Below are positions 19,951 through 42,114 of a DNA stretch of 64,000 bases, piece by piece. Source of the stretch: Streptomyces diastaticus subsp. diastaticus (lineage in GTDB: Bacteria > Actinomycetota > Actinomycetes > Streptomycetales > Streptomycetaceae). Each line of letters opens with the position of its first letter. Position 1 is the first letter of the stretch. Position numbers and translations under genes: made by a program. The notes under the pieces were generated by a model that was not told the DNA's origin, did no database searches, and saw only the letters and a list, made by a program, of their open reading frames with translations. The DNA lies in the NCBI RefSeq assembly GCF_011170125.1, contig NZ_BLLN01000005.1, forward strand, positions 2,586,501 through 2,650,500, read 5' to 3'.

Positions 19951-20946
19951 GTGGGTGACAACGAGATGGCCGTCTTCGGGCTCTCCGCGACCGAGGAGGA
20001 GCTCTACCGGCATTTCCTGCGCAATCCGGGGACCTCCGTCGACGATGTGCACCTCCTGCTGCACACCGCCGGCACGGACGCGGCCCGGGCGCTGGAGCGC
20101 CTGCGCGAGCTGGGGCTGCTGCTGCCGGCCGGGCCGGAGGGGCGGGTGGTGCCGGCCGACCCCGAACAGGCCGTCTCCCACCTCGCCGACCGGCGGCTGC
20201 ACGAGCTCCACCAGGACCTGCGGCGGGTCACCCGGGCCCGGCACGTGGTGGACGGGCTGCGGGCCGAGCAGGGGGCGCGGACGGCCGCGCCGCAGGGCAT
20301 CGAGCAGATCGAGGGGCTGGCGGCGATCCGCGGCCGCATCGAGGACCTGGCCTTCTTCGCCCGCGAGGAGATCCTCTCCGTGGAGCCCTACACGCGGCTC
20401 TCCCCGGAGAACATCGCCCGCTCCCGCCCGCTGGACCTGCGCTGCCTGGCCCGCGGCGTCGTCATCCGCAACGTGGTGCGCCGCTGCGCCCTCTCCGACC
20501 CGCCGACCGCCGCCTACCTGCGGGAGCTGACGGCCTCCGGCGCGCACATCCGGGTCGCCGACGAGGGGGAGGCGGGCGAGCGGCTCCTCGTCTACGACCG
20601 CCGGACCGTGCTGGTCCCCCTCGACCCGCGCGACACCGCCCGCGGCGCGCTGCTGGCCCACAAGAGCGGCCTGGTCGCCAACATCATCGCCCTCTTCGAG
20701 AAGATCTGGGCCCAGGCGGCCCCGCTGGACGCCGAGCCGGAGCAGGGCGGTCTGAGCCCGTTGAGCGAGATGGAGCGCCAGGTCCTGCTGGCGATGTGCA
20801 CGGTCGGCAAGGACGAGGCGGGCGCCCGCGAACTGGGGGTCTCGGTCCGCACGTACCGGCGGCACGTCGCCGACCTCCTCCAACTGCTGGGAGCGGCCAG
20901 CCGCGCCCAGGCGGCCCTGCTGGCCCGGGAGCGCGGCTGGGTCTGA
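19951..20946 (+). CDS. LuxR/TrmB-type transcriptional regulator of the RiPP island
   Basis: A 331-residue regulator. An N-terminal winged-helix of TrmB type (GLSATEEELYRHFLRNPGT through ARALERLRELGLLLPAG), a central effector region (IEQIEGLAAIRGRIEDLAFFA) and a C-terminal LuxR HTH (LSEMERQVLLAMCTVGKDEA, LGVSVRTYRRHVADLLQLLG) are visible. This architecture is frequent next to Streptomyces thiopeptide and other RiPP clusters. Start GTG 19951; an in-frame ATG at 19966 is possible. It is oriented toward the precursor but separated by decayed genes, so it likely acts in trans on the cluster promoters. Confidence 0.85.
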   Translation: MGDNEMAVFGLSATEEELYRHFLRNPGTSVDDVHLLLHTAGTDAARALERLRELGLLLPAGPEGRVVPADPEQAVSHLADRRLHELHQDLRRVTRARHVVDGLRAEQGARTAAPQGIEQIEGLAAIRGRIEDLAFFAREEILSVEPYTRLSPENIARSRPLDLRCLARGVVIRNVVRRCALSDPPTAAYLRELTASGAHIRVADEGEAGERLLVYDRRTVLVPLDPRDTARGALLAHKSGLVANIIALFEKIWAQAAPLDAEPEQGGLSPLSEMERQVLLAMCTVGKDEAGARELGVSVRTYRRHVADLLQLLGAASRAQAALLARERGWV

Positions 20947-21681: not shown

Positions 21682-21939
21682 TCAGCGCGCCGACGCCCCC
21701 TGTCCGACCCTGCCCCACCCGCACAGCGCCGGGTCGGCCAGCGCCCGGGTGAGGAACGGCTCGGGGTCCGTGGGTACCGGGGCGAGCCGCAGGCGGAGCA
21801 GGTCGGTCCCGGCGTCGGGGTGGCAGCACCAGTCGGCGGGGAGCAGGGCCAGCAGCCGGATGACGGTGATCTGGCCGGGTGGGGCGGCGGGGTCGGCGCG
21901 GTGCAGGGTGACGTCGAGGTGGGCGGGGGACCAGGTCAC
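21682..21939 (-). CDS. Small unknown protein coupled to the M20 hydrolase
   Basis: An 85-residue protein whose GTG start overlaps the M20 stop codon (GTGA). It starts VTWSPAHLDVTLHRADP and continues GQITVIRLLALLPADWCCHP and DLLRLRLAPVPTDPEPFLTRA. The alternating strand/helix pattern could be an ACT- or ferredoxin-like fold, but I do not recognise a family. Tight coupling makes it a likely partner of the M20 enzyme. Confidence 0.6.
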   Translation of the reverse strand: MTWSPAHLDVTLHRADPAAPPGQITVIRLLALLPADWCCHPDAGTDLLRLRLAPVPTDPEPFLTRALADPALCGWGRVGQGASAR

Positions 21940-23222
21940 GGGGCGGCCTCCGGGGAGGGCGGGAACGCTCCCACGGCGTGGGGGCCGTCCGCGAACAGGT
22001 GGCGGGCGGCCGCGGTGAGAGCGGTGATGCCGGCGGGCAGGGCCTGGCGCAGGTCGGGGGCGAAGTCGGAGGCGTGGTTGGCCGGGACCGGGCGGCCCTC
22101 GGCCGTGGCGGCCCGCCAGGTGGCGGCCGGGGTCGTGCCGAGCATCCAGTAGGCGAGCGGGATCCGGGTGCCGTCGGCGAGGCGGGTGAGGTGGGTGAGG
22201 TCCTCGGTGGCCGGGGACGGTACGGCGGCCAGGACGCGCCCGGCGCCGAGGTGCTCGGCGTGGACGGCGCGCAGGGCGGCGGTGAGGTCCGGGTCGGGGG
22301 TGAGGACGGGCGAGCGGGCGGTGACGGTCAGTTCGGGTGGCCCGGGCGCGGCGGCGGCCTCGCTCTCGGCGGCCAGGACGCGCCGTACGGCCTCCTGGAG
22401 CCGGTCCAGGGCGGCCTCGGTGAAGGCGCGCAGGCCCAGCGAGAGGGTGGCCCGGTCGGGGATGACGTTGGCGCGGGTCCCGGCGTGCAGGGTGCCGACC
22501 GTCAGCACGGCCCCTTCGGCGGGCGCGGTCTCGCGGGCGGTGAGGGTGTGCAGCCGCACCACGGCGGAGGCGGCCATCAGCAGCGGGTCGGCGGCGAGGT
22601 GCGGGGTGGCGGCGTGACCGCCTCGGCCGTGCAGGACGGCCTCCAGGGTGCGGCTGCCGGCCATCAGCGGGCCGCCGGTGGCGTGGGCGAGGGTCCCGGC
22701 GGGCAGCGGGGCGGCGTGCTGGGCGAGGACGGCGTCGGGGCGGCCGAACCGCTCGTACAGCCCGTCGTCGGCGAGGGCGCGGGCGCCGGTGAGGGTCTCC
22801 TCGGCCGACTGGCCGAGGAGCAGCAGGCGGCCCTGCCAGTCGGCGCGGGTGGCGGCGAGGCGGGCGGCGGCGCCGGTGGCCGCGGCGGCGTGCAGGTCGT
22901 GGCCGCAGGCGTGCATGACGCCGGGGACGGCGGAGGCGTAGGGCAGGCCGGTGGCCTCGGTGACGGGGAGCGCGTCGAGTTCGGTACGGAGCAGGACGGT
23001 GGGCCCGGGGCCGTTGCGGAGTTCGGCGAGGAAGGAGGGGGTGCCGGCGAGCCCGGGGTGGACGGTGAGGCCGAGGGCGGTGAGTCGGTCGGTGAGCAGG
23101 GCGGCGGTGGAGTGTTCGGCGCCGGAGAGTTCCGGGGCCCGGTGCAGTGCGAGGTACAGCTCTACGGCGGCCTTCAACTCGGCGCGGGGCGGCTGGGTTT
23201 CGGGGGCGGCCACGGGCCTCAC
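21936..23222 (-). CDS. M20-family amidohydrolase
   Basis: About 428 residues of the M20D (IAA-amino-acid hydrolase/hippuricase) type, dinuclear-metal cytosolic hydrolases that cleave N-acyl amino acids or peptides. Visible ligands: MHACGHDLHAAAATGAAARL (Asp/His), LLLGQSAEETLTGAR (Glu-Glu) and the C-terminal LRQALPAG region with NHASDFAPD (His). GTG 23222 follows GAGGACGAAGAG; in-frame GTGs at 23246 and 23213 are alternatives. It is divergent from the precursor gene and shares its regulatory region, so a role in trimming the peptide or its leader is likely but unproven. Confidence 0.85.
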   Translation of the reverse strand: MRPVAAPETQPPRAELKAAVELYLALHRAPELSGAEHSTAALLTDRLTALGLTVHPGLAGTPSFLAELRNGPGPTVLLRTELDALPVTEATGLPYASAVPGVMHACGHDLHAAAATGAAARLAATRADWQGRLLLLGQSAEETLTGARALADDGLYERFGRPDAVLAQHAAPLPAGTLAHATGGPLMAGSRTLEAVLHGRGGHAATPHLAADPLLMAASAVVRLHTLTARETAPAEGAVLTVGTLHAGTRANVIPDRATLSLGLRAFTEAALDRLQEAVRRVLAAESEAAAAPGPPELTVTARSPVLTPDPDLTAALRAVHAEHLGAGRVLAAVPSPATEDLTHLTRLADGTRIPLAYWMLGTTPAATWRAATAEGRPVPANHASDFAPDLRQALPAGITALTAAARHLFADGPHAVGAFPPSPEAAP

Positions 23223-23307
23223 CTCTTCGTCCTCGGGGGTGTCCACCTGGATCCACGGGCCGTCCGGGCAGCGTGCGGCGCGGGCGCGTCAGGGGCGTCT
23301 CGTTCCG

Positions 23308-23360: not shown

Positions 23361-23437
23361 GGTGGGGCTGGGATGGCGTCAGCAAGGGAGTTCCGCCGGA
23401 TCGGCCGGCGGGCCCCTGGGACCGCAGGGAGTACGCG

Positions 23438-23614
23438 ATGACCCCCAAGACCGAGCTGGCCACCCTCGCCGACGAGATCCTGGAGCTGGAGTCGGAGACC
23501 TTCGAGATCTCGGACTACTCGGACGCCGCCGAGGTCGTGCTCGCCGGTTCGACGTCCTGCTCCTCGACGTCGACCTGCTCCAGCACCACCAGCACCACCT
23601 CCTGCTCGGCCTGA
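23438..23614 (+). CDS. RiPP precursor peptide (thiopeptide/LAP-like)
   Basis: A 58-residue peptide too short for routine ORF lists. ATG 23438 follows CAGGGAG by six bases. The leader MTPKTELATLADEILELESE is acidic and helical, then TFEISDYSDAAEVVLAG matches the FEISDYxD leader element of thiopeptide precursors such as those for thiostrepton and nosiheptide. The tail (residues 38-58) has 10 Ser, 7 Thr, 3 Cys (41, 47, 56) and a terminal Ala58. Cys41 and Cys47 each precede Ser-Ser, and Cys56 precedes Ser57. Leader cleavage is probably after Gly37. A strong hairpin follows. Confidence 0.92.
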   Translation: MTPKTELATLADEILELESETFEISDYSDAAEVVLAGSTSCSSTSTCSSTTSTTSCSA

Positions 23615-23633: not shown

Positions 23634-23673
23634 GGCCCCTGTCCCGGCGGCGTCCACCGCCGGGACAGGGGCC
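23634..23673. terminator. Bidirectional terminator between precursor and YcaO gene
   Basis: Perfect 17-bp arms (23634-23650, 23657-23673) with a 6-base loop lie 20 bases after the precursor stop and 25 bases after the convergent YcaO stop. It likely terminates both transcripts. Confidence 0.9.
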
Positions 23674-23697: not shown

Positions 23698-25707
23698 TCA
23701 CGGGAAGGGATGCGGGGCCAGGTGGACGGCGTCGGCGGGCAGGTCGTCCGGGCGGCGTCCGGCGGTGCGCAGCCCGGTGCGCAGGCGCTCCATGGTCAGG
23801 GCGCGCTGCCGGGTCCAGCCGAAGTCGATGGGGAGCAGCCCGGGGACGGCGGTGGCCACGGTGCTGAGGCCGGCGCGGGCCTGCTCCGGGGTGGTCTGGT
23901 CGACGGCGATCACGTCGTGGCCGCCGTCGGCGAGGACGCCGGTGAGCAGCGCCAGGTCGTCGCGGAGGTCACCGGTGCGGGGGCGGACGGCGGTCCAGTC
24001 CGCGAAGGCGTCGGCGAGCGGGAGGCGCTCCAGAGGGTCGAGGAAGGGCGCGGCGTGGTGCGCCATCTCGGGCAGTCCGTAGAGCTGGGCATGGTCCTTG
24101 AGGTCCCGTACGAGGGTGTAGTCGGCCGCCATGGCGGTGAGTTCGGCACGGCGTTCGGTCACCTGGTAGGGCAGGTGCGGGATGTAGGTGAGGACTTCGG
24201 AGAGGGCGGAGGAGACGGTCTCGGCCGGGTCGAACCCGGCGGCGGCGGCGAAGGCGAGGGTGCCGGGGCCGCCGTCGCGGCGGACGGCGAGGGCGGTGAC
24301 GACGGGGACGGGCGGGCCCATCCGGGTGTCGTAGGCGTGGATGTCGTAGCCGTGCAGGGCGGCCCGGTCGGTCATGGCGCGGACCTCGGGGTCGGCGACG
24401 GTGGCCAGGTCGATCTCGGTGAGCCGGGCGCGGCCGTACCAGGCGAGCAGGAAGGCGTCCCGCTCGACGCGTTCGAGAAGGCCGAAAAGGATCGCCTCGG
24501 CGAGGCCGGAGCCGGTGGCGCAGCCGTTGGAGCACTCGAAGACGAAGTTGTCGGCCTCGACCCCCGCGCTGTAGTGCGCGAGCCGCGCCGGGACGAGGAC
24601 GGGCCTCTCGTCGCGCAGTGAGTGCCCCCAGACCCAGGGGATCTCGCGGTCCGGGTCGAAGGGGCTGACCAGCGGATCGTTCGCGTACGTCTCGGGGGCG
24701 TACAGCCCGCAGGTGCGCGGGTCGAGGGCGTCGGCGGCCAGCTCGTGGTAGCTGCCGAGGACGGGGGTGGTGCCGCGTCGGCGGTGGGTGCCCGCGTACC
24801 GCTCCAGCCCTTCCAGGAAGGCGAGGCGGCGGCTGGTGGCGGTGCGGTTGGCCTGGCCGGACCAGGTGACGTCGGTGAGCCCGGCGTAGCCGCGCACGAA
24901 GTGGGTGCCGGCCACGGGGGCGGTGGTGGTGGAGGCGGGGTTGATCCAGGTGTCGGAACCGAGGGCGCCGCAGACCGGGTTGGCGAGGGCGGCGACGGGC
25001 AGGGCGTACGCGCCGAGGGGACGTACGCGGTAGGTGCCCGGGTCGGGCTTGGGCGCCGGTTCGAGGGCGAGGCGGGCGGCCGGGGCGGTGTCGGGGCGCG
25101 GGGTGACGCAGGCCGGGCAGAGCGGGTCGGGCAGCAGCGGGAAGGTGGCGGTGGCGAGGGTGACGAGGTCGGTGCGGGTCACCCGGGGCAGGGCCCTGTC
25201 GGCGGGCTCCTCGGCGGCGGGGGCGGCGCGTCCCGGCCGGTGCACGGCCCGGTAGGCGGCCCAGACGGCGTCGGTGGCCCAGTCGGTGACGACCGGCCAG
25301 CCGGTGGCGCCGTGCGGCACGTGGCGGCGCTCCAGCGCCTCCCGCTCGGTGCGGCCCCGCAGCCGCTGCCACCGCATCCCCAGGCACTGCCCGCAGGCCC
25401 CGGCGGACTCGGGGCGGGCCCCGTCCGGCAGCCACGGACCGGTGAGGACGGCGCGCGAGGTGAGGTGGACGGTGGCAGCCGGGCGCTCGGCGGCGTACGG
25501 GTCGGGGGCGCCGGTGCCGAGGGTGTCGGCGGCGCCGAGCGGGACGACCGACGGGGCCGGGAGCAGGGCGCGTTCGGCCGCGGGCAGGGCGGCGTGGCGG
25601 GCGGTCAGCGCCGCCTGGAGCCGGTCGCGGGCGGCGTCCAGCGGGCGGGGGGCGGCGGGCGGTGCGGGGGCGGACGCGGTGGCGGTGGGCACGGGGGTGG
25701 CGGGCAT
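23698..25707 (-). CDS. YcaO-domain azoline cyclodehydratase 1
   Basis: A 669-residue TOMM cyclodehydratase. Residues 70-210 resemble the C-terminal, zinc-binding part of an E1-like protein with CGQC (105-108) and CPAC (197-200). Residues 250-669 are a full YcaO domain with the ATP-binding elements FLEGLERYAG (297-306), ECSNGCATG and LLERVERDAFLLAWYGR. It ends in APHPFP, the proline-rich C-terminus needed by azoline-forming YcaOs. It would phosphorylate backbone amides to form thiazolines or (methyl)oxazolines. It is the last gene of the minus operon, and clearly homologous to the protein at 34230-36182. Confidence 0.93.
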   Translation of the reverse strand: MPATPVPTATASAPAPPAAPRPLDAARDRLQAALTARHAALPAAERALLPAPSVVPLGAADTLGTGAPDPYAAERPAATVHLTSRAVLTGPWLPDGARPESAGACGQCLGMRWQRLRGRTEREALERRHVPHGATGWPVVTDWATDAVWAAYRAVHRPGRAAPAAEEPADRALPRVTRTDLVTLATATFPLLPDPLCPACVTPRPDTAPAARLALEPAPKPDPGTYRVRPLGAYALPVAALANPVCGALGSDTWINPASTTTAPVAGTHFVRGYAGLTDVTWSGQANRTATSRRLAFLEGLERYAGTHRRRGTTPVLGSYHELAADALDPRTCGLYAPETYANDPLVSPFDPDREIPWVWGHSLRDERPVLVPARLAHYSAGVEADNFVFECSNGCATGSGLAEAILFGLLERVERDAFLLAWYGRARLTEIDLATVADPEVRAMTDRAALHGYDIHAYDTRMGPPVPVVTALAVRRDGGPGTLAFAAAAGFDPAETVSSALSEVLTYIPHLPYQVTERRAELTAMAADYTLVRDLKDHAQLYGLPEMAHHAAPFLDPLERLPLADAFADWTAVRPRTGDLRDDLALLTGVLADGGHDVIAVDQTTPEQARAGLSTVATAVPGLLPIDFGWTRQRALTMERLRTGLRTAGRRPDDLPADAVHLAPHPFP

Positions 25708-25808: not shown

Positions 25809-26564
25809 TCAGGTGCGGTCGGACCAGCGGAAGGTCTTGAGGGCGACGGCGGTGAAGACGACGGCGAACCCGGCGAGGACGCCGCAGGAGACCAGGATGT
25901 CGCCGGTGCTGCCGGAGCCGGTGAGGGCGGCGGACACCCCGTCGTTGAGGTAGCGCAGCGGCAGCACACGGGAGATGGCCTGCATCCAGTCGGGCATCGC
26001 GTCGAGCGGGAAGAAGGAGCCGGAGAGGAAGGCCATCGGCAGCATCACGCAGTTGGCGACGGCGGCGACCGCCTCCGGGGTGCGGGTGAAGGAGCCGACG
26101 ATGACGCCGAGGGCGAGGAAGGCGGTGACGCCGACGACCAGCATCAGGAAGGCCCACGGCCACCCTGCGGAGAGTTCCAGGCCGAACGGCGGCAGCATGG
26201 CCACGGCGACGAAGAGGACGGCCTGCACGGCGCCGATGCCGAGCGCCAGCACGTACCGGGAGGCCATGACGGCGGAGACGGGCGTGGGGGTCATCCGGAT
26301 GAGGCGCAGGATGTCGTCACGCCGCCACTGCATGAGGACGAAGCCGACGCCGAAGACGGCGGCGTTGCCCAGGCCCCAGGAGAGGACACCGGGGGCGATG
26401 TAGCTGATGTAGGGGCGGCCGGACTGCTCGACCTCCTGGCCGCTGAAGATGAGGCCGAAGACGACGAGGAAGATCAGCGGGAAGGCGAAGGTGAAGAAGA
26501 GGGTGGTCTTGTCGCGGGTGTAGGCCCGGTATCCGGCCTGGCTGAGGGCGGCGTAGGCGCTCAT
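25809..26564 (-). CDS. ABC-2 type transporter permease
   Basis: A 251-residue membrane protein with six hydrophobic segments (for example TTLFFTFAFPLIFLVVFGLIF, VLALGIGAVQAVLFVAVAML, AFLMLVVGVTAFLALGVIVG). It carries the ABC-2 signature FLSGSFFPLDAMPDWMQ and ends shortly after the last segment. It follows its ATPase gene by 54 bases, with GGAGA before the ATG. It probably exports the mature peptide or provides self-protection. Confidence 0.92.
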   Translation of the reverse strand: MSAYAALSQAGYRAYTRDKTTLFFTFAFPLIFLVVFGLIFSGQEVEQSGRPYISYIAPGVLSWGLGNAAVFGVGFVLMQWRRDDILRLIRMTPTPVSAVMASRYVLALGIGAVQAVLFVAVAMLPPFGLELSAGWPWAFLMLVVGVTAFLALGVIVGSFTRTPEAVAAVANCVMLPMAFLSGSFFPLDAMPDWMQAISRVLPLRYLNDGVSAALTGSGSTGDILVSCGVLAGFAVVFTAVALKTFRWSDRT

Positions 26565-26618: not shown

Positions 26619-27584
26619 TCAGCTCTCGGCGGGGGCCGGGGCGGGGGACGACTCGCCGGTGAGGGTGAGGTAGACGTCCTCCAGGCTGGGGGTGCGGGTC
26701 TGCACGCCGTGCAGGCCGCCGCGGGCGTCGACGGCGGCGAGGACCGGGCCGGAGTCCTCCGTCTCCAGGACCGTCATGTCGCCGTCCGCCGTGGCGCGCA
26801 GGACGCCGGGCAGGGCGGCGCCCTCCTCCGGGGTCAGCCGGTCGGCGGGAACCAGCAGGCGGGTGGTGGCGCTGCTGGCGGCGATCAGCCGGCCGGGGCT
26901 GTCGAGGGCGCGGACGGCGCCGCCGACCAGGATGGCGACCCGGTCGCAGAGGGCTTCGGCCTCGTCCAGGTGGTGCGTGGTGTAGACGATGGTGCGGCCG
27001 GCGCCCTTGAGGTCGCGCAGCACCTTCCACAGGTCGCGACGGGCCTGCGGGTCGAGGGCGGCGGTCGGCTCGTCCAGGAAGATCAGCTCGGGGTCGTGGA
27101 CGAGGGCGGAGGCGATGGCCAGGCGCTGGCGCTGGCCGCCGGAGAGGTCGTCCACCCGGACGTCGCCGTGGTCGGTGAGGCCGACCAGGGCGAGCGCCTG
27201 CTCGGCGGCGTCCCGGCCGGCCCGGTAGAGGGCGGCGACGGTGGTGAGGTGTTCGCGGGCGGTGAGGCGGACGAAGAAGGCGCTGGACTGGGTCTGCACG
27301 CCGATCCGCGGGAGCAGCGCGGTGTCCCGGGGCCAGGGGTGGCGGCCGAGCACGGTGACGGTCCCGGCGTCGGCCTTGCGCTGGCCCTCCATGATCTCCA
27401 CGAGGGTGGTCTTGCCCGCGCCGTTGGGCCCGAGCAGCCCGAAGAACTCGCCGCGGCCGACGGTGAGGGTCACCCCGGCGACGGCCTCGGTCGGCCCGTA
27501 CGTCTTGCGGACACCGTCGAGGACGACGGCGCCGTCGGTGGCCTCGCCCGGGGCTCCGGCGGGGTCGTGGGGCTGGGGGGTCAT
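26619..27584 (-). CDS. ABC transporter ATP-binding protein
   Basis: A 321-residue DrrA-type ATPase. Walker A GLLGPNGAGKTTLVEIM, Q-loop QTQSSAFF, signature LSGGQRQRLAIASAL, Walker B ELIFLDEPTAALD and the H-loop TTHHLDEAEAL are intact. The C-terminal extension with RLLVPADRL and VYLTLTGES is typical of antibiotic and peptide exporters. GAGGAG precedes ATG 27584. It pairs with the permease at 25809-26564. Confidence 0.94.
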   Translation of the reverse strand: MTPQPHDPAGAPGEATDGAVVLDGVRKTYGPTEAVAGVTLTVGRGEFFGLLGPNGAGKTTLVEIMEGQRKADAGTVTVLGRHPWPRDTALLPRIGVQTQSSAFFVRLTAREHLTTVAALYRAGRDAAEQALALVGLTDHGDVRVDDLSGGQRQRLAIASALVHDPELIFLDEPTAALDPQARRDLWKVLRDLKGAGRTIVYTTHHLDEAEALCDRVAILVGGAVRALDSPGRLIAASSATTRLLVPADRLTPEEGAALPGVLRATADGDMTVLETEDSGPVLAAVDARGGLHGVQTRTPSLEDVYLTLTGESSPAPAPAES

Positions 27585-27632: not shown

Positions 27633-28748
27633 TCAGGTCCCGGTCAGCAGGTGGCGGGCGGCGGCCCACAGGGCCAGGCCGGTGCCCGCGAGGACCAGCA
27701 GCACGGCCGCCGGGTACGCCAGGTAGGCGCGGCGGGCCGGGGCCGGGTAGGCCCGGGCGGCCGGGTCGCGGCGCAGGGCGAGGCGGAGATAGGTGCGGCT
27801 GGCGGTGAACAGGCCGATGGTCCGGGTGAGTTGCCCGGCGATCTGGTACCCGTCGAGCGGCGGCAGCGGGACCAGCATGGCGAGGGCCTGCACGGTGCCG
27901 AGGAGGACGAGGGCGGCGCAGGCGTCGCGGGTGGCCTCGTCGGGCGGGGCGAGGAGCCAGAGCGCGCCGAACGGCAGCAGGAAAAGGAGGTTCATGACGG
28001 CTCCGGCGACGGCCGTCGCGATTCTCGCCCAACGGGTCGGCAGGTACGGGTAGTTGTCGACTGTGCAGTACATGATGACCATGGGCAGCCGCCACCGCAG
28101 GCCGATCTCGGCCACTGTGCCGCCGTAGTGACGGGCCACCACGCCGTGCGCCAGTTCGTGCAGGGCGGTGGAGAGCCAGAGCAGGGTGGCGGCGGCGACC
28201 AGGAGCACCGGATTGCCCAGCAGCGCCCGGGTGGCGTCGAGCGCCTCCCCGGCGCGCGCCACGAGCGCGGCCTCCAGGGCGAGGACGAGGAGCAGCAGCG
28301 GGACGAGCGCGGCCGGGTGGAGCAGGGGGCGCAGCACCCGGTGGAGCCGGGTGGTGGTGGTGTCCGCGTCGGCGACCAGGCGCAGGGTGCCGCGCCACAG
28401 GGTGCGCGGTTCGGCGGACTTCGCCGGGGCGGCGGCCGGGCGGGGAGCGCCGTCGAGGAGGCCGCGGGTGCCGAGCAGGGCGAGGAGCTGGCGCCACTGG
28501 GCCTCGCCGAGCCGCTTGCCGTGGGCGGAGGCGTAGGCGGCGCCGAGGTCGTCCAGGGCGCGGGTGCCGTCCATGCGGGCGAGCAGGAACGCCTCCCGCG
28601 GGCCGACCTTGAAGGAGTGGCCGGTGCCGGTGTCCTTGACGAGGTGGACGGTGGCCGGGCCGTCGAGGAGGGGCCCGCCGACGAGCACGCCCGCGCGCAG
28701 GGCGGGCCGGTAGGAGCCCGGGACGGCCCGTTCGGCGGGCGCGCTCAC
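27633..28748 (-). CDS. M50-like membrane metalloprotease with PqqD-like N-terminus
   Basis: A 371-residue protein. Residues 20-100 (VHLVKDTGTGHSFKVGPREA, AQWRQLLALLGTRGLLDG) resemble a PqqD/RRE-type winged helix that could hold a leader peptide. Residues 140-371 contain about six membrane segments, the zinc motif HELAHGVVARHYGG (from His197) and the second M50 motif PLPPLDGYQIAGQ. Such site-2-protease-like proteins occur in peptide clusters as candidate leader proteases or immunity factors. The GTG start overlaps the SpaB_C stop. Confidence 0.82.
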   Translation of the reverse strand: MSAPAERAVPGSYRPALRAGVLVGGPLLDGPATVHLVKDTGTGHSFKVGPREAFLLARMDGTRALDDLGAAYASAHGKRLGEAQWRQLLALLGTRGLLDGAPRPAAAPAKSAEPRTLWRGTLRLVADADTTTTRLHRVLRPLLHPAALVPLLLLVLALEAALVARAGEALDATRALLGNPVLLVAAATLLWLSTALHELAHGVVARHYGGTVAEIGLRWRLPMVIMYCTVDNYPYLPTRWARIATAVAGAVMNLLFLLPFGALWLLAPPDEATRDACAALVLLGTVQALAMLVPLPPLDGYQIAGQLTRTIGLFTASRTYLRLALRRDPAARAYPAPARRAYLAYPAAVLLVLAGTGLALWAAARHLLTGT

Positions 28749-29812
28749 GCGGCGTCCTCGCGCAGCACCCGGCCGAGGACGTGCGAGAGGTACGCCTCGT
28801 CGCGGATGGTGACGTGCAGCCGGTTGTTGGTCATGTGCATGTACGGCGAGAGGAGCAGTGGCAGCGCCACGGCCGGGTCGGTGACCCGCTCGTCGCGGGT
28901 GCCGTCCCAGGAGCGGAAGACGAGGTCGCCGTCGGTGGCCAGCTTCTCGGCTCGGGTGCGGAGTTCCGCGCAGTGGTCGGCCCAGCCGGCGAGGAAGCCG
29001 GGCAGCCGGGGCCGCTCGCCCTCCGGGGTGGCGGGACGGGTGGCGGCGCGGACGCGGGCGAAGCGCTCACCGAGGCCGGGGGCGAGGGCCGCGTAGTTGC
29101 GGTCGTACTCGTCGGTGCCGATGAAGTTGGTGCCGGGGAAGGCCCGGTGCCAGAACTCGTAGTAGCTGTCGAGGTAGCCGGTGAGTTCGGCCCGGTCGGG
29201 CAGGAAGGTCGCGGCCATCACCATCATGAGCTGGGCGGAGGTGCCGAGCAGCACGGTGCGCAGGTGGAGGTTGATGGTGGCGAAGGCGTCGATGACCAGG
29301 TCGCTGGAGTGCCGGAAGTGCCACTCGGCCAGCTCGATCCCGGCCGTCCCGCCGTACTTGCCGTACTCGGGTTCGTACGGTTCGGCGCTGCGGCTGTTGT
29401 TGGGACGGATGTTCATGCGCCCGTCGTCGCCGGTGTAGTGGCCGCGTTCGGCGCCGGGGAACTCGATGTCGAAGAGGGTGTTGTAGAAGTCGTTGAGGAA
29501 GCCGGCGTCGACCTCGTAGAGCGCGGGGCGTTCGCGCAGGAAGGTGTCGACGGCCTCCTCGGTGCGGCGGCGGACCTCCGCCTCGGCCTCGGGGGTGGCG
29601 GGCTTGAGGCGCAGCCGCACGTGCGGGCCCTCCAGCCAGTAGTTGATGAAGAAGTAGCCGCTGATCAGCCCTTCCTCCTCCAGCTCGGTGACGAGCGGGC
29701 GGACGCAGGTCAGCAGGAAGGGCCGGGGGTTGGCGGCGTAGAAGACGTGGGTGGCCTGCCAGGCGCCGGTCTTCGCGGCGGTCCCGGTGGCGGACAGGGT
29801 CAGGTCGGTCAT
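28745..29812 (-). CDS. Stand-alone SpaB_C / thiopeptide-type biosynthesis protein
   Basis: A 355-residue protein of the lantibiotic-dehydratase C-terminal class. Its N-terminus WQATHVFYAANPRPFLLTCV, GYFFINYWLEGPHVRLRLKP is diagnostic, and the body includes NDFYNTLFDIEFPGAERGHY and EPEYGKYGGTAGIELAEWHF. Family members either eliminate glutamate from glutamylated Ser/Thr (GodG, TbtC) or form the thiopeptide pyridine by [4+2] cycloaddition (TbtD). Only one copy is present. With a separate LanB glutamyl transferase, elimination is the more economical role. It overlaps both neighbours by four bases. Confidence 0.9.
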   Translation of the reverse strand: MTDLTLSATGTAAKTGAWQATHVFYAANPRPFLLTCVRPLVTELEEEGLISGYFFINYWLEGPHVRLRLKPATPEAEAEVRRRTEEAVDTFLRERPALYEVDAGFLNDFYNTLFDIEFPGAERGHYTGDDGRMNIRPNNSRSAEPYEPEYGKYGGTAGIELAEWHFRHSSDLVIDAFATINLHLRTVLLGTSAQLMMVMAATFLPDRAELTGYLDSYYEFWHRAFPGTNFIGTDEYDRNYAALAPGLGERFARVRAATRPATPEGERPRLPGFLAGWADHCAELRTRAEKLATDGDLVFRSWDGTRDERVTDPAVALPLLLSPYMHMTNNRLHVTIRDEAYLSHVLGRVLREDAA

Positions 29813-32574
29813 GGCGCGGTCCTCGCGGGGGTGGGGGCGGGCAGGGTCTCCACGGCCAGTTCGGTGACGTGCCGGCCGCGCGACGAGGCGGCGTGCAGCC
29901 CGTCCTCGTCGGGCAGCGCCTCGCGGAGGACGGCGCGGGCCTTGTCGGTACGGAGCAGCGCCTCGAAGGCGGCGAGCGAGAGCGGGCTGTCGAAGTCGAC
30001 GTAGCTCGGCTTGGCGCCGGTCGCGCCGCGTGCCCCGCTGTCGGAGACGGTGGCGTAGACCCGGGCGGGCAGGCCGTGGGCGCGGCGGAAGCGGTGCCAG
30101 CCGAGGAACCAGGTGGCGTCGTCGGTGCCGGGGGCGCGCAACGGCAGGTTCCGCGCGTCCACGCCCCAGCTGCGGCGCGCGAGGACCAGGCTGCCGTGGC
30201 GGACCCGGGGGCGGTGGGTGACGCCGTCCACGGGCGGACGGTCGGGGACGCCGCCCCAGACGTTGAGCGGGGACATGGAGGTCGGGGAGAGCAGCAGCAG
30301 GGTGCGCGGCAGTTCGGGCAGGGCGAGCGGAACGAGGTAGCCGAGGTAGACGGGGATCACCTCGCGCTCCAGCCGGACCGAACGCAGGACGAGGCGGTCC
30401 TGCTCCTCGTCGTGGACGAGGAAGAGGTCGTCCAGGCCGAGCTGGAACCTCGGCTCCAGGGTGCCGCTCTCGCCGGGCCCGACGATCTCGTACTCGGTGA
30501 GGCGGGCGTGCAGGTTGAGGTTGGAGGTGACGGGGCCGCCGGTGACCTCGGCGAGGACGGCGCCGGGCGGGGCGGCCTCGGCACCGGCGGCGAGCAGCCG
30601 TTCGCCGAGGCCGTCGAAGAGGTGGGTGAAGCGGCTGAAGGGGAAGGAGAGCCCGCCGTAGGAGCGGTTGAGGACGGCGAGCGGGCCGTCCGGCCGGTCG
30701 GCGAGCTGGACGTGATGGCTCATCGGCGCGAAGGCGGGTGCGAGCGGGGCGAGCGGCGCCGCCGCGGCGTCCAGCAGGTCCTCGTCGAGGACGAGGTCGC
30801 CGTCGCCCTCGTGCGCGGCCCAGCGTTCCCGCATCCCGGTGAGGAAGGCGGCCCGGGCGGCGTCCAGCGCCTTCAGCTCGGGCAGGCCGAGCCAGTTCTC
30901 CTCCGGGTTGTGGTCGCCGTCGGGGCCGAAGGCGGGGCGCTGGGAGGTGAAGGAGAGGTACTGGTCGAAGAAGTCCTCGTGGAAGTCGTGGACCAGCTTG
31001 ACCAGGTCGTCGCAGCGCCCGCCGCGCCCGAAGCGGGCGGTGAAGAAGCCCTTGAGGGTGAGCCGGTGCGGCAGGGTCAGGTCGAAGGCGGGCAGCACGC
31101 GCTCCAGCCGGGCCAGCGGCTCCCCGGCGGCCTCGGCCCAGCGGTCGGCGGAGAGGGTGAGGCCGGTCGGCCCGTCGGCGGGGACGGCGCAGTCCTCGTA
31201 GAGCACGGTCTGCGGGACGCGGCTCTGCTCGGCTCCCAGCGACCGCTGCACGGTGGCGAGTTCGGCGCGCAGGTTCTCCAGCAGCAGCCGTCTGCGGTCC
31301 GGTTCGGCGGCGGCGAACTTGTCGACGCAGGCCGCGGCGGGCTCCAGCCTGTCGGCGAGGCGGTCGGCCCAGGGGCGGCCCACCTCGCGCAGGGCCGACT
31401 GGAAGGCGCGCAGCGGATCGGTGTCGTGGACGGTGACGTCGAGACAGGGCACCCGGACCAGGCCGAGGGCGAGCAGCGCGTCGAGGTACTGCGCGACGTC
31501 GGCCTCGGTGGCGCCCCGGTCGGCGGCGAGCCAGGCGGAGAGGGCGCCGTACCGGAGGGTGCCGTGCTCCTCGAAGTGGCCGAGGAGCCGGTCGAGGGTG
31601 CCGCTGCGGCGGAGGTAGAAGAGGCGGTCCTTGACGGAGTCGAAGGTGACGGCGGTGGCCTCGTCGCCCTCGGTGACCCAGCGGCGTACGTACCGCACCC
31701 GGTCCGCCTCTCGCCCCCAGCCGGAGGCGACGGTGACGGGCAGGTCGGCGCGGCGGGCCGGGTCGGCGAGGACGGTGGCGGCGAGCCGGCCGACGGCGGC
31801 GGTGTTGAGCCGGGCGGCGGTGGGCCAGGCGTCGGCGACGGCCAGCGGGAAGGCGCCGGGCCCCTCGTGGGCCTCGCCGTCGCTGAAGGTGCCGAGGCCC
31901 ACGCCGGTGAAGGTGGAGAAGGGACTGGTCTTGCAGGCGGTGCGGTACAGGTAGGACAGGAGCGAGCGCTCGATCTTGCGGTGCTTCTTGTCCGGGGTGG
32001 CGGCCGGGTCGGCGGCGGTGCGCCGCACGTACGCGTCGAGCCCCGCGTCGAGGGTGGGTGAGGCGAGCAGCAGGCCCTTGCGGAGCCGGTCCTCGCCCGC
32101 CGCCGCGCAGAGGGCGGCGCGGGCGCGGGCCGTCTCGGAGGCGAGCAGCCCGGTGCCCTCGGCCTCGCGGGCGGCGAGCGCGGCGCGGCGCGTGAGCCAG
32201 TCGCCCAGGGCGCCGGCGGTCCGCGGGTCGCGGGCGGCGACCAGGGCGCGGGCCGCGCCGGGGTCCTTGGGCAGCCGGTTGTTGAAGACCTCGCGGCGCA
32301 GCTTCAGCAGGGCGCGGCGTTCGGCCTCGTCCTCGGTCCCGCCGATCAGCGGGTGGAGGAGGTCGCCGAGGGCCTCGCCGTCGGCGGTGAGGCGGGCGGC
32401 GGCGTCGAGCACGTCGTCGGCCCAGCGGCGGGCGCCGGGGGCGCGCAGCGGGCGGACGGTCTCGACGGGGAGCCCGGCGGTGCGCAGGACGAAGGCTTCG
32501 CGGGGGCGGCCGGGGCGCGGGCCGGGGGCGTCGGGTGCGGGCATGGCGGCGGGGGTGCCCCTTCCGGAGGTCAC
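29809..32574 (-). CDS. LanB-type lantibiotic dehydratase (glutamylation)
   Basis: About 921 residues (GTG 32574) or 911 (ATG 32544). The Lant_dehydr_N start is EAFVLRTAGLPVETVRPLRA. Other visible family blocks are KTSPFSTFTGVGLGTFSD, DKKHRKIERSLLSYLYR, PVTSNLNLHARLTEYEIVGP and LPARVYATVSDS. These enzymes transfer Glu from glutamyl-tRNA to Ser/Thr hydroxyls in the RiPP core as the first half of dehydration. No SpaB_C elimination domain follows in the same chain; that is the next gene. The GTG start is favoured by its overlap with the SagB stop. Confidence 0.92.
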   Translation of the reverse strand: MTSGRGTPAAMPAPDAPGPRPGRPREAFVLRTAGLPVETVRPLRAPGARRWADDVLDAAARLTADGEALGDLLHPLIGGTEDEAERRALLKLRREVFNNRLPKDPGAARALVAARDPRTAGALGDWLTRRAALAAREAEGTGLLASETARARAALCAAAGEDRLRKGLLLASPTLDAGLDAYVRRTAADPAATPDKKHRKIERSLLSYLYRTACKTSPFSTFTGVGLGTFSDGEAHEGPGAFPLAVADAWPTAARLNTAAVGRLAATVLADPARRADLPVTVASGWGREADRVRYVRRWVTEGDEATAVTFDSVKDRLFYLRRSGTLDRLLGHFEEHGTLRYGALSAWLAADRGATEADVAQYLDALLALGLVRVPCLDVTVHDTDPLRAFQSALREVGRPWADRLADRLEPAAACVDKFAAAEPDRRRLLLENLRAELATVQRSLGAEQSRVPQTVLYEDCAVPADGPTGLTLSADRWAEAAGEPLARLERVLPAFDLTLPHRLTLKGFFTARFGRGGRCDDLVKLVHDFHEDFFDQYLSFTSQRPAFGPDGDHNPEENWLGLPELKALDAARAAFLTGMRERWAAHEGDGDLVLDEDLLDAAAAPLAPLAPAFAPMSHHVQLADRPDGPLAVLNRSYGGLSFPFSRFTHLFDGLGERLLAAGAEAAPPGAVLAEVTGGPVTSNLNLHARLTEYEIVGPGESGTLEPRFQLGLDDLFLVHDEEQDRLVLRSVRLEREVIPVYLGYLVPLALPELPRTLLLLSPTSMSPLNVWGGVPDRPPVDGVTHRPRVRHGSLVLARRSWGVDARNLPLRAPGTDDATWFLGWHRFRRAHGLPARVYATVSDSGARGATGAKPSYVDFDSPLSLAAFEALLRTDKARAVLREALPDEDGLHAASSRGRHVTELAVETLPAPTPARTAP

Positions 32575-34178
32575 GTGAGCTCGTGGCGGTAGTCGGCGGG
32601 GGCGGGCCGCTCGTGGCCGACCATCATGATCAGCAGCGGGGCCTCGCCGGTGGCCTCCAGGCCCAGTTCCTCGACGTAGGAGATGTTGTCGAAGCCGAGG
32701 GCCACGCCGCAGCCGACGTCGAGTGCGGCGGCGGCGGTGTAGACGGACTGGGCGACGGCGCCGATGGTGGCGTTGACCAGGCGGTAGCCCCGGTCGCCGA
32801 CGGCGTCCAGCACGGCGGTGGTGCGCACGGTGGGCACCAGCACGGCGCCGGCCTGTTCCAGGTTGTAGTTGGAGAGGAAGTAGTTCTTCTGCAGGAAGGG
32901 TCCGGGGGCGCCCGCCTTGACCAGGCGCAGGGTGTGCGCCTCGGGGTCGTAGGCGTAGGCGCCGGGGGCGAGGTCCTCGGCGTGGTTGACGAAGACGTAC
33001 AGCCCCGCCAGTCGCTCGCCGCCGGGCCCGGTGCCGGTGTCGCCGCCGAGGTACGAGCCGTCGGTGGCGGCCCGGCAGCAGGCGGCGAGGTCGGCGGCGG
33101 CCAGCGGCCGGGAGGCGTCGAACCGGCCGAAGCTGCTGCGGCGGCGGCGCAGCGCGGTGCGCACGTCGGCGGTGAGGGGGGCCGCCGGGGGCAGCGCTGC
33201 CTCGGGCAGGGCGGGATCGGCCGGGCGGGCGGCGGCCGGGGCGAGGGCGCCGGGGGCCGGCCGGTCGAGGGCGCCCTCGGCGGTGGCGGCCTGCATGGCG
33301 GTGACGGCCTCGAAGGTGAGGACGGTGCGGGACCGTTCGACGTCCCGGTGGCGCACGGAGAACGGGGTGGCCGGTGCGGCGGCGGTGCCGGTGGCGCCGC
33401 GCCACCTCAGCGGTACGACGGCGAAGATCCCCTCCTCCTCGGTGCGCACCCCGAGCAGCCGCGCGAGCCGCTCCTCGTCGAACCAGAGGGCGGGCGCCAC
33501 CTCCAGGCCCCGGGCGCGGGCCCACATGCGCCAGGTCTGCACGCAGGCGCCGAGGTCCATGGAGACGGCGTGGAAGGAGAAGCTGTTGTACTTGAAGGAG
33601 TTCTGCCAGTACTTGATCGACAGGACGAGGTACTGGTCGGTGGCGTCGGCCCCGTCCGGCGCGCCCGGCCCGGCCGCCTCCAGGGCGGCGCGTACCTCGC
33701 CGGTGGCGTCGCCGGTGAGCAGGCGGCGCATGGCGTGGTGGCGGGTGGCGTAGTGGTGGACGCCCGGCGGCACGGGCGCCGTGGGCCCGGAGACCCAGTA
33801 GACGCTGACCGGGTAGAGCCCGCCGCCGGAGGCCGAGCCGCGCGAGAAGTTGGCGAGCGGGTAGTGCGGCAGGGCGTCCAGGTCGGTGTTGGCCTGGACG
33901 CCGAGGCGGCGCCCGGTCAGGCCGTAGGAGTCGCGGAGCATCCCGGAGAGCGCGGCGAGGTCGAAGCCGCCGGGTTCGGCGAGGGGCGCGGGGTCCAGGC
34001 CCCGGTCGAGGGCGGCGTCGGCGGGGTAGCCGGAGTCGGGCAGCGGCAGCAGGTCGGTGTCCGGGTAGTGCTTGGTCTTGCGCGGGCCGTCGGCCCAGTT
34101 CGGCACGTGGTCGACCGGCTCCATGTGGACCCGGCCGCGCCGCATGATGGCGGCGGCGTAGTCGTAGGCGTACCCCAC
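32571..34178 (-). CDS. SagB-type azoline dehydrogenase
   Basis: A 535-residue FMN-dependent nitroreductase-fold enzyme that oxidises azolines to azoles. It starts AYDYAAAIMRRGRVHMEPVD and has two nitroreductase-like halves: residues 90-240 (NFSRGSASGGGLYPVSVYWV, QNSFKYNSFSFHAVSMDLGA) and 340-535 (RRRRSSFGRFDASRPLAAAD, YRLVNATIGAVAQSVYTAAA, DVGCGVALGFDN). The length fits full-length SagB/TbtE-like proteins. GTG 34178 follows GGGAG. It presumably docks with the YcaO/E1 complex. Confidence 0.92.
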   Translation of the reverse strand: MGYAYDYAAAIMRRGRVHMEPVDHVPNWADGPRKTKHYPDTDLLPLPDSGYPADAALDRGLDPAPLAEPGGFDLAALSGMLRDSYGLTGRRLGVQANTDLDALPHYPLANFSRGSASGGGLYPVSVYWVSGPTAPVPPGVHHYATRHHAMRRLLTGDATGEVRAALEAAGPGAPDGADATDQYLVLSIKYWQNSFKYNSFSFHAVSMDLGACVQTWRMWARARGLEVAPALWFDEERLARLLGVRTEEEGIFAVVPLRWRGATGTAAAPATPFSVRHRDVERSRTVLTFEAVTAMQAATAEGALDRPAPGALAPAAARPADPALPEAALPPAAPLTADVRTALRRRRSSFGRFDASRPLAAADLAACCRAATDGSYLGGDTGTGPGGERLAGLYVFVNHAEDLAPGAYAYDPEAHTLRLVKAGAPGPFLQKNYFLSNYNLEQAGAVLVPTVRTTAVLDAVGDRGYRLVNATIGAVAQSVYTAAAALDVGCGVALGFDNISYVEELGLEATGEAPLLIMMVGHERPAPADYRHELT

Positions 34179-34229: not shown

Positions 34230-36182
34230 TCAGGGGAAGGGGTGGGGGGCCGGGTTGAGGTCGGCGTCGGTGAGGTCGCGGTCGGCCAGGCCCGCCTCGC
34301 GCAGGGCGGTGCGCAGGCGGGGCATGCCCAGGGCGCGCTGGCGGGTCCAGCCGAAGTCGATGGGGAGCAGGCCGGGGACGAGGACGCTGACGGTCCGCAG
34401 GCCCAGCGCCCGCTGCTCGGGCATGGTCTGGTCGACGACGACCACGTCGAAGCCGGCGCCGGTGACGGCTTCCACGCACCGCGCGAGGTCGTCCCGCAGG
34501 TCCTTTGAGACGGGTGGTGGCGAGCCGCCTCCGTACAGCTCGCTGAAGGACCGCTTCGGCGGGCGCGGGGCGCCGGGCGCGCCGATGAGGAAGTGGGCGT
34601 GGTCGCCCATCTCGGGGATGCCGTAGGCGAGCGGGTGGTCGTGGAGTGCCTCGACGCGGTGGAAGTCGGTGGCCATGGCGCGCAGCCGGGCCTCGTCGCG
34701 CCGGGTGCGGCCCGGCAGGTTGACGGCGTCGGTGGCGATCTCGCAGAGGGCGCCCGCGACGGCCGCCTCGGGGTCGAGGCCGGCCCCGGCGCCGAAGCAC
34801 ATCCGGCCGAGCCCGCCGTCGGGGCGGACGGCGACGCCGGTGACGACGGGGATGGGGAAGGTGACGCGGGTGTCGAAGAAGCGGGCCTCGTAACCGTAGA
34901 GGGCGAGCCGGTCGACCATGTGGCGGGTGGCGGCGCTGGTGCTGGTCGCCGGGTCGATCTCGGGCAGGGCGGCCCGCCCGTACCAGGCGAGCAGGAAGGC
35001 GTCCCGCTCGACGACCTCCATGAGTCCGCAGTAGACGGCCTCCTCCAGACAGCCGCCGGTGGCGCAGCCGTTGGAGGACTCCTGCACGAACCGGTTCTCC
35101 AGCCCGGGCGCGTGGTAGTACGTCAGCACCTCGGGGACGAGGACGGGCCGCTCGTCGCGGAGCGAGTAGCCCCAGACCCAGGGGATCTCGCGGTCGGTGG
35201 TGAAGGGCGGCACGTGGGGGTTGGCGGCGTGGAAGGCCGCGTCGTAGAGCCCCACCACGCGCGGGTCCACCACCTGCTCGCCGCGCGCCACCAGGCTGTC
35301 GAGCGAGGCCCTGACCTCGGCCTTCTTCGCCCGCGACCGCATCCCGGCGTACCGCTCCAGCCCTTCCAGCACGCCGATGCGCAGGCTCTGGCCGAAGGTG
35401 TCGGCGTGGCCGCCCCAGAAGGTCTCGCGCAGGTAGTCGCCGGAGCGCATCGAGAAGCAGCCGACGGTCGCGGAGGTCGACCCCGAGGAGACGTCCTGGA
35501 CGACGGAGGGCCCGAGGGAGCCGCAGAGCGGGTTGGCGTACGGCTGGAGAGGCAGGTCGTAGGTGGCGAGGTCCCGGACGCGGAAGCTGCCGGGCCGGTG
35601 CTTGGGCGCGGGCCCGAGCGTGAGGGTGGCGGCCTCGGCGGTGTCCTCCTCGGCCACCGAGCAGCGTGGGCACTCCGGGTCGGGGACGAGCGGGTAGTGG
35701 CGGGTCCGCAGCGTCTGGAGGTCGACCAGGTGCACGGCGGCGAACGCCCCCGTGTCCGGGCCGCGCCCGCCGGTCCGCGCCGCGATCAGCGCGGCCACCG
35801 CGTCGGCCCCGAACGGCGTCAGGTACGGGTTGTGACCCGCCGTCCGCGTCCCGGCCCCCAGCTCCAGCGCCTCCCGCAGCGTCACACTGCGCACCGCCTG
35901 CCAGCGCCGCTCCAGGCAGCGCGGGCAGGGCTGCTCGCGCTCTCCGGGGAACGGGCCGACCACGGCCTGCCGCCCGTAGATCCGCACGGGCACGGCATCG
36001 GCGTCGTACACCGGGACGGGCGCCCGGAAGGCGTCGTGCACGCCGAGCGGGGCCAGGTCCAGGGCGACGGGCGTGCCGTGGGCGGCCAGCGCCCGGCGCA
36101 GTCCGGCGCCGAAGGCGGCCACCGGGTCACCGGTGGTGCGGCCCGGTGCTCCGGCCGCCTGGTCGAGGGTGTCAGCGGGCAT
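34230..36182 (-). CDS. YcaO-domain azoline cyclodehydratase 2
   Basis: A 650-residue paralogue of the YcaO at 23698-25707. A truncated E1-like zinc part with CPRC at 86-89 and 171-174 precedes an intact YcaO domain: VLEGLERYAGMRSR, ESSNGCATG, CGLMEVVERDAFLLAWYGR, the block IPWVWGYSLRDERPVLVPE shared with YcaO 1, and a C-terminal APHPFP. The ATG overlaps the end of the E1-like gene by 11 bases, so the pair is translationally coupled. Two intact YcaOs for one precursor suggests division of labour between Cys and Ser/Thr sites (inference). Confidence 0.93.
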   Translation of the reverse strand: MPADTLDQAAGAPGRTTGDPVAAFGAGLRRALAAHGTPVALDLAPLGVHDAFRAPVPVYDADAVPVRIYGRQAVVGPFPGEREQPCPRCLERRWQAVRSVTLREALELGAGTRTAGHNPYLTPFGADAVAALIAARTGGRGPDTGAFAAVHLVDLQTLRTRHYPLVPDPECPRCSVAEEDTAEAATLTLGPAPKHRPGSFRVRDLATYDLPLQPYANPLCGSLGPSVVQDVSSGSTSATVGCFSMRSGDYLRETFWGGHADTFGQSLRIGVLEGLERYAGMRSRAKKAEVRASLDSLVARGEQVVDPRVVGLYDAAFHAANPHVPPFTTDREIPWVWGYSLRDERPVLVPEVLTYYHAPGLENRFVQESSNGCATGGCLEEAVYCGLMEVVERDAFLLAWYGRAALPEIDPATSTSAATRHMVDRLALYGYEARFFDTRVTFPIPVVTGVAVRPDGGLGRMCFGAGAGLDPEAAVAGALCEIATDAVNLPGRTRRDEARLRAMATDFHRVEALHDHPLAYGIPEMGDHAHFLIGAPGAPRPPKRSFSELYGGGSPPPVSKDLRDDLARCVEAVTGAGFDVVVVDQTMPEQRALGLRTVSVLVPGLLPIDFGWTRQRALGMPRLRTALREAGLADRDLTDADLNPAPHPFP

Positions 36183-38496: not shown

Positions 38497-38502
38497 CCTA
38501 GG
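38497..38502. repeat. Target-site duplication of the IS481-type element (left copy)
   Basis: CCTAGG directly precedes the IS. It is the NCTAGN type of target that IS481 duplicates, and it is repeated at 39584-39589. It also supplies the TAG stop codon of the transposase gene (complement of 38498-38500). Confidence 0.9.
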
Positions 38503-39583: not shown

Positions 39584-39589
39584 CCTAGG
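39584..39589. repeat. Target-site duplication of the IS481-type element (right copy)
   Basis: CCTAGG directly after the IS. The complement of 39585-39587 is the TAG stop codon of the SARP gene, so the insertion preserved that reading frame's end. Confidence 0.9.
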
Positions 39590-41570: not shown

Positions 41571-41578
41571 GGCGGCGC

Positions 41579-41812
41579 CTAGTCCCAGCCGTTGACCAGC
41601 TTGCCGTGCCCCGGCCCGTCGGGGACCCCGTCCCAGCCGTTGACCAGGGGGCTCACGGGCCCGGGCGCGGGGGACGGCGCCTGCGCGGCGGCCTGCCCGG
41701 CGCCGAGGGCGAGGACGGCGGCGGCCCCGGCGAGGGCGGCGGCGGCCCTGGCCCGGCGGGCGCGGACGGAGGCGGCGGACGGCGGACGGTGGGCGTTTCG
41801 GTTCCCGGACAC
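41579..41812 (-). CDS. Small secreted peptide with duplicated LVNGWD motif
   Basis: 77 residues: a basic N-region, hydrophobic core AAAALAGAAAVLALGAG and a likely signal-peptidase site near AQA45, leaving about 32 mature residues. The mature part contains LVNGWD at 56-61 and again at the very C-terminus (72-77), separated by a Gly/Pro/Asp spacer. The gene is 8 bases upstream of the SARP gene and must share its mRNA. I recognise no family; a secreted signal or a translationally coupled leader peptide for the SARP is possible. Confidence 0.6.
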   Translation of the reverse strand: MSGNRNAHRPPSAASVRARRARAAAALAGAAAVLALGAGQAAAQAPSPAPGPVSPLVNGWDGVPDGPGHGKLVNGWD

Positions 41813-42114
41813 GGTTCTCCCTGGAGAGTCTGGTCATGGCTCATGGGCGACTGCGCGAACAGGGCTCGCCGGTGTGCGGCGCGGCCGCCCCGGGTGAGGC
41901 CGGAGTGATGGTGGGGGGTGGCGCTGTGCGAAGGGTGGGGGGCTGGGGGCTTGCGTGACGGGCCGCCCGGAAGGTGGGGGTGCTCGGTACGGGCGGTGGG
42001 GGTGGCGCGGTACGAAGCGGAGGGGCGTCGTGGGTTCGGACGCTCCCCTGACGGGCCGTCGGGCTGGTTGGCACGACCATGCCAGTGCGACCCTCTCCCG
42101 TGGTGGACGCGCGT

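Follow-up and report, generated by a model that had tools for sequence, protein, structure and literature searches.

What kind of product is made from a peptide whose C-terminal tail consists almost solely of serine, threonine and cysteine, and whose relatives carry the name of thiazolylpeptide-type bacteriocins? Such a peptide is encoded in the stretch of Streptomyces diastaticus subsp. diastaticus DNA analyzed here (contig NZ_BLLN01000005.1; 64,000 nucleotides, hereafter the window) by the plus-strand open reading frame (ORF) 23438-23614, the translation of which reads MTPKTELATLADEILELESETFEISDYSDAAEVVLAGSTSCSSTSTCSSTTSTTSCSA (58 residues). Its tail, STSCSSTSTCSSTTSTTSCSA, comprises in residues 38–58 10 Ser, 7 Thr, 3 Cys and 1 terminal Ala, the composition that an earlier note had read from the letters, and the G+C fraction at third codon positions of the ORF is 0.98. 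The ORF is a real gene; a chance ORF was considered and rejected, as the precursor belongs to a conserved family. Since there is no sign of a pyridine synthase in the surrounding cluster, its product is probably linear and free of a pyridine ring, with many azoles and dehydroamino acids, and goadsporin-like in its biosynthetic logic.

The family to which the precursor belongs is already known to curated profile databases. The peptide scores 50.6 bits against TIGR03892 (cut-off 25) and 41 bits against NF033400 (cut-off 30), both named "thiazolylpeptide-type bacteriocin", and hence is a member of this family with a leader of the thiopeptide-precursor type, as had been proposed. Pfam-A gave no match for the window precursor itself, some of its close relatives carrying PF19409. 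In a protein search, 99 of 115 candidate proteins matched the precursor at E ≤ 0.01, many of them under the name just given; one of the 99 (P0002) is a longer-start version that is identical to the window's peptide. The word "unannotated" in the earlier note thus fails at the level of the family, for which curated models and many named relatives exist in public databases. Within the genus, the precursor is present in 41 of 246 sampled genomes, its own included. The loci with named sources (the best 80 of 92, selected by a conserved stretch of the precursor tail and another of its leader) come from Streptomyces, Kitasatospora, Streptacidiphilus, Actinacidiphila, Streptantibioticus, Micromonospora, Catellatospora and Dactylosporangium; protein names add Actinocrinis, Actinokineospora, Catenulispora, Nonomuraea and Solwaraspora, giving 13 named actinobacterial genera in total. 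Five loci (L015, L024, L042, L063 and L079) contain two to three same-strand precursor copies within 0.3–2.5 kb. The tails differ from copy to copy; only in L079 do two of the three have the same one. Six diverged precursors, mostly from metagenome sources (P0086, P0088, P0092, P0095, P0097 and P0099), have the leader altered to FEIQDYT or FEIVDYS and retain the tail end SSTTSTTSCCA.

The conservation of the ORF together with its cluster had been set beforehand as a test by which the reading as precursor of a ribosomally synthesized and post-translationally modified peptide (RiPP) could be refuted. The ORF is kept with the cluster. Indeed, all 12 cluster genes (Table 1) are matched in each of the 10 clusters fetched from other genomes, in the same order in nine; in the tenth (G025) the precursor is relocated beside the SARP gene. 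A SARP match stands beside the cluster in all 10 relatives and is partial only in G034, G056 and G062. Among the 80 named loci, for which stretches of at most 10 kb per side were compared, often ended by contig ends, a YcaO1-type gene (at least 49% identity) lies near the precursor in 70 and an M20 gene in 67. In the remaining ten (L043, L046, L054, L055, L059, L061, L062, L065, L067, L077) the precursor has a SARP-type gene as neighbour. The tail type CTSTSSTSTSSSTCSTTSCSA, in which the Cys places are shifted, is shared by these ten and by no other of the loci. A gene for a PF14028 protein was found on the precursor's contig, within 13 kb, in 36 of the 41 genus genomes (by eye from the tables); it lies on a different contig in G152, G159 and G224, and none is listed for G235. 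In G210, PF14028 occurs near the precursor as fragments only (G210:C1:4451873-4452738). Together with the matches to curated precursor models, the position of the ORF in a conserved azole and dehydration cluster bears out the RiPP reading, which is not refuted.

The YcaO, F protein, dehydrogenase and split LanB components of thiopeptide type are all present, and a true thiopeptide would result if the PF14028 protein, or an unrecognised one, formed a pyridine from two dehydroalanines (Dha) and closed a macrocycle. This possibility, which we nevertheless consider unlikely, is favoured by the matches of the precursor to thiopeptide models, by the thiopeptide-like character of the remaining machinery and by the TbtD model and TbtD structures being the best-scoring matches of the PF14028 protein. 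The genome encodes one PF14028 protein (28745..29812), so that elimination and cyclisation would need one and the same enzyme. Against the TbtD model this protein scores 91.7 for a cut-off of 325, a value in the range obtained for four elimination partners (70.0–112.9), and it retains the elimination-type residues, including the histidine. The mutation H961A of NisB is reported to abolish dehydration. At the place of H961, a His is found in 11 of 11 members of the window family, in 7 of 7 elimination partners, those of three loci (L147, L149 and L151) being assigned as such by family profile and exclusion only, and in 12 of 12 LanB C-domains, of which three (L106–L108) were added by a filter for "NR" near the end, with L104 omitted. 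All seven true pyridine synthases have Tyr there, and this place alone separates the seven, TbtD_L151 having Arg and Glu at two other compared places. Moreover, in all seven thiopeptide loci a profile of the window family, built from untrimmed frames, gives the second protein a higher score than the pyridine synthase. TbtD exceeds its cut-off in 7 of the 246 genus genomes, none of which is among the 41 with the precursor.

Three further comparisons bear on the same protein. In the fold comparison it matches the TbtD structures best, in a method that by its own control (alignment A4, which included six window-family rows) fails to separate elimination from cycloaddition enzymes. A tree separates four groups (TbtC with a support of 65/97 only) without showing which of TbtC and TbtD is the closer one to the window family. 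In a profile search, TbtD came out below LanB structures and TsrE; the alignment used contained elimination-type rows, so that this test is not independent. As all 12 conserved genes are assigned to other families and no thiopeptide-defining pyridine synthase ([4+2], TbtD/PbtD type) was found in the genome or among them, a true thiopeptide was rejected; if the "thiopeptide-like" of the earlier note was meant for the product, it is not supported. What is found instead is the goadsporin-type gene set, i.e. YcaO, SagB, LanB glutamylation and LanB elimination without a cycloaddition enzyme.

For the linear azole peptide, we infer the following route, and with it the number and places of the modifications, the leader cleavage site, the export and any bioactivity. 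The leader motif ETFEISDYSD would be held by the F protein, whose leader-binding domain is recognised by TIGR03882 (42.7 bits, cut-off 36.9), and by the leader-binding domains of YcaO1 and YcaO2. The YcaO proteins would then cyclise Cys and Thr of the tail, perhaps also some Ser, to azolines, and the SagB-type protein would oxidise these to thiazoles and methyloxazoles. Glutamylation of the Ser or Thr preceding each azole would fall to the LanB N-domain protein, the best solved relative of which is 6ec7 (a lantibiotic dehydratase domain protein), and the stand-alone LanB C-domain protein would eliminate glutamate to yield Dha or dehydrobutyrine (Dhb). The M50 enzyme is probably the leader peptidase, since it is conserved in the cluster and its HELAH and LDG motifs are kept; it would cut near LAG/S, the M20 enzyme perhaps trimming the product, which the ABC-2 transporter would export. 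M50 enzymes are known from the pathways of epipeptides and pearlins. Since the heterocyclisation of thiopeptides in itself detaches the leader, the presence of a separate protease agrees with a linear product.

The expected tail would be read as Ser40-Cys41-Ser42 / Ser43-Thr44-Ser45 / Thr46-Cys47-Ser48 / Ser49-Thr50-Thr51 / Ser52-Thr53-Thr54 / Ser55-Cys56-Ser57-Ala58, each triplet with a dehydroamino acid in the first place and an azole in the second. The calculated neutral monoisotopic mass of residues 38–58 is 1975.729 without modification and 1747.509 with six azoles (-20.026 each) and six dehydrations (-18.011 each); a product so modified would have 1804.530 if it began at residue 37 and 1875.567 if at 36. 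Read from Ser40, the six triplets of the window tail have Ser or Thr in the first place, Cys or Thr in the second and Ser or Thr in the third; the second places hold all three Cys and no Ser. On permutation of residues 40–57, this second-place pattern arises in 0.33% of cases for a period of 3 and in 2.6% for any period from 2 to 6. In the 13 distinct tails into which the aligned precursors collapse (see below), the second places are occupied by 44 Thr, 27 Cys and 7 Ser, the first by 59 Ser, 15 Thr, 3 Ala and 1 Cys, and the third by 48 Ser, 25 Thr, 4 Cys and 1 Ala. Besides the last residue, Ala occurs in them at 42 and 49 only, at no second place. The diverged tail of L091 (Streptomyces eurocidicus), read by eye as TTS-TTS-STT-STT-SCC-A, has the same register. 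Three observations weigh against it: the pattern is lost once residues 38-39 are included, the wider set of 38 tail strings has one Ala and one Gly on a second place, and the tails of L075, L090 and L092 fit the triplets only in part (read by eye). The triplet register is retained as a working model.

Another conceivable reading is that disturbance or silence of the cluster keeps this strain from making the product that its relatives make. This explanation, which we hold to be very unlikely, draws on an IS481-family element (38503-39583) between the SARP and F genes that has no match within the compared stretches of the 10 relatives; against it, the twelve genes are open reading frames for which the matches in relatives cover most of the length, and the copy of the element is intergenic. 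Least likely is a class I lanthipeptide-like product in which some free Cys add to Dha or Dhb to form thioether rings, as the presence of a split LanB and the Cys interspersed among Ser and Thr might allow; it was rejected because the 12 conserved cluster proteins contain no LanC match (Pfam; the search for LanC was confined to these proteins), and moreover the two YcaO proteins with SagB argue for conversion of Cys to thiazoles, and in relatives Cys, Thr and Ser interchange at positions 41 and 47 and Cys and Thr at 51.

The tail is the most constant part of the precursor family. From 78 of 81 sequences (the 80 named loci and the window), 85 precursors were read by a pattern anchored on the last residues, which missed L075, L090 and L092, the tails of which differ. 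The 21-residue tail of the window is found unchanged in 29 of these 85 precursors (its own counted), encoded by 29 different DNA sequences. Four precursors (from L072, L073, L074 and L091) were dropped since the leader motif differed or stood at an unexpected distance from the end, and the 81 that could be aligned collapse to 13 distinct tails; the 100 proteins made up of the window's and its 99 matches have 38 distinct strings as last 21 residues. The Nei-Gojobori ratio of nonsynonymous to synonymous substitution rates is 0.79 for the tail and 0.90 for the last 18 residues, values inflated by switches between the AGY and TCN codons of Ser that are counted as changes; codon and residue differences were therefore compared instead. 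Among the 81 aligned precursors, differing codon pairs change the residue in 24.7% of cases in the tail (38–58) and 15.2% in residues 44–56, against 74.1% in residues 1–17 and 50.5% in residues 18–37. At the invariant Ser positions of the tail both TCN and AGY codons are in use, a switch that needs more than one base change. Judged by these comparisons, in a set of loci biased by its selection through conserved stretches of tail and leader, the tail is under strong constraint and more constant than the leader.

At least one member with the tail end SSTTSTTSC[STC]A is found in 12 of the 13 named genera, the single Streptacidiphilus locus (L075) having a clearly different tail. Such conservation points to a single constant target or to a part in signalling more than to an antibiotic shaped by an arms race, and the unusual constancy of the tail makes a shared target or signal testable. 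As nearly every residue of the tail could be modified, it also lends itself to examining how Ser and Thr are shared out between the YcaO and LanB enzymes.

Among known systems, goadsporin (god cluster, Streptomyces sp. TP-A0584) comes close: it is linear, and like the window cluster its pathway combines azoles made by YcaO and dehydrogenase with dehydration by a split LanB (PMC5303826, PMC4603692). In goadsporin, Dha is formed only before an azole, Dha at S4 and S14 requiring that T5 and S15 be azoles, and with GodF no glutamylated product was obtained when the peptide was unmodified (PMC5303826). The compound affects growth and development of actinomycetes (PMC5303826). Both an inhibition of growth and effects on sporulation belong to its activity. 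On the other hand, the god cluster has one fused cyclodehydratase, the putative peptidase-ABC fusion GodB and the acetyltransferase GodH (PMC5303826), whereas the window cluster has two YcaO proteins, an F protein, M50 and M20 hydrolases and a tail almost solely of Ser, Thr and Cys; the family matches of its 12 conserved proteins include neither a GodH-type N-acetyltransferase nor a GodB-type peptidase-ABC fusion. With thiopeptides of the thiomuracin, GE2270 and berninamycin type the window cluster shares the precursor model, the F protein, YcaO, SagB and the split LanB (PMC4603692); it differs from them by its separate conserved protease and in that no pyridine synthase was found.

The spongiicolazolicins A and B of Streptomyces sp. 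CWH03 are, like the product proposed here, linear azole peptides, and have been called goadsporin-related (PMC10676384); they may be relatives of the window family. With 29 and 28 residues (PMC8838263), against about 21 here, they are set apart by description and not by precursor sequence, and they had no antibacterial activity in the reported tests (PMC8838263). Nostatin A is composed of triplets of Dha or Dhb, an azole and an unmodified residue, and the pattern of spongiicolazolicin, phazolicin and goadsporin has been called very similar to it, with fewer dehydrated residues (PMC11583998). Dehydrazoles, exemplified by carnazolamide from Chryseobacterium, resemble the proposed product in their many azoles with Dha directly before them (PMC10676384). 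In carnazolamide too Dha occurs only before azoles, made by a different type of enzyme: dehydrazoles rely on DUF4135 LanM-type dehydration on a nitrile-hydratase-type leader (PMC10676384), the window cluster on a split LanB and a short leader. A dehydrazole was rejected, there being no DUF4135 match (Pfam) in the 12 cluster proteins.

A full-text literature search for pieces of the core and the leader, with most subscription papers outside its coverage, yielded no paper and so does not contradict the earlier statement that no characterized peptide has this core. Likewise, no description of the product was found in the available portions of the literature on thiopeptide mining, thiazolylpeptide-type bacteriocins, goadsporin and dehydrazoles. 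The family is already named, and its product seems to be an undescribed one of the goadsporin-type linear azole peptide kind, although the precursor occurs in about one sixth of the sampled genus genomes. We give about even chances to the wider proposal that these precursors represent a widely conserved RiPP subclass, filed under thiopeptides by the leader alone, whose product would be a linear chain of some six dehydro-azole-hydroxyl triplets, installed by a split LanB together with the two YcaO proteins. If the product is indeed a linear polyazole, the many entries called thiazolylpeptide-type bacteriocin imply the wrong chemistry.

Table 1. Features of the precursor locus and its cluster (positions in the window)
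Feature	Position	Strand	Remarks
M20-family amidohydrolase/peptidase	21936..23246	-	divergent from precursor; profile scans
Ribosome-binding-like AGGGAG	23426..23431	+	6 bases upstream of precursor ATG; read from sequence
Precursor peptide gene	23438..23614	+	58 aa; stop 23612-23614
Leader, residues 1-37	23438-23548		cleavage site predicted only
Presumed core, residues 38-58	23549-23611		cleavage site predicted only
GC-rich hairpin	23634..23673	.	17 bp, 6-base loop; after precursor stop, between convergent precursor and YcaO1 genes
YcaO1, fused cyclodehydratase	23698..25707	-	669 aa from likely start Met at 25707; ORF open to 26163; C-terminal PHPFP
ABC-2 type permease	25809..26564	-	PF01061
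ABC transporter ATPase	26619..27584	-	profile scans
M50-type membrane metalloprotease	27633..28748	-	HELAH at 197, LDG at 298
Stand-alone LanB C-domain (PF14028), read as elimination (glutamate lyase) type	28745..29812	-	R66, R68, E149, K152, H326
LanB N-domain (PF04738), tRNA-dependent glutamylation type	29809..32574	-	start uncertain
SagB-type dehydrogenase	32571..34178	-	azoline to azole, by family
YcaO2, second fused cyclodehydratase	34230..36182	-	650 aa; C-terminal PHPFP
F protein, ocin-ThiF-like	36172..38403	-	62.6 bits, below its cut-off 561.9
SARP/AfsR-like regulator	39585..41837	-	profile scans

The hairpin downstream of the precursor stop has a z of -6.7, none of 200 shuffles being equally stable, and is probably a two-way terminator lacking a T run; a scan for consensus promoters and terminators, in which the terminator consensus requires a T run, gave no match. 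The cluster is flanked by mfd and a luxR-type gene (15995-20946). The same neighbours are present in several relatives, e.g. L013, L015, L019, L022 and L025, and the cluster seems to occupy a fixed chromosomal place in these. Between the luxR-type and M20 genes, the minus-strand stretch 21056-21451 matches only the C-terminal part of an amidase (profile 360–465 of 468) and looks like a gene remnant. The IS481-family element mentioned above carries a transposase frame at 38498-39481 and ends in TGTATTGA at 38503 and TCAATACA at 39576; CCTAGG stands on both flanks (38497-39589), the right one overlapping the SARP stop codon.
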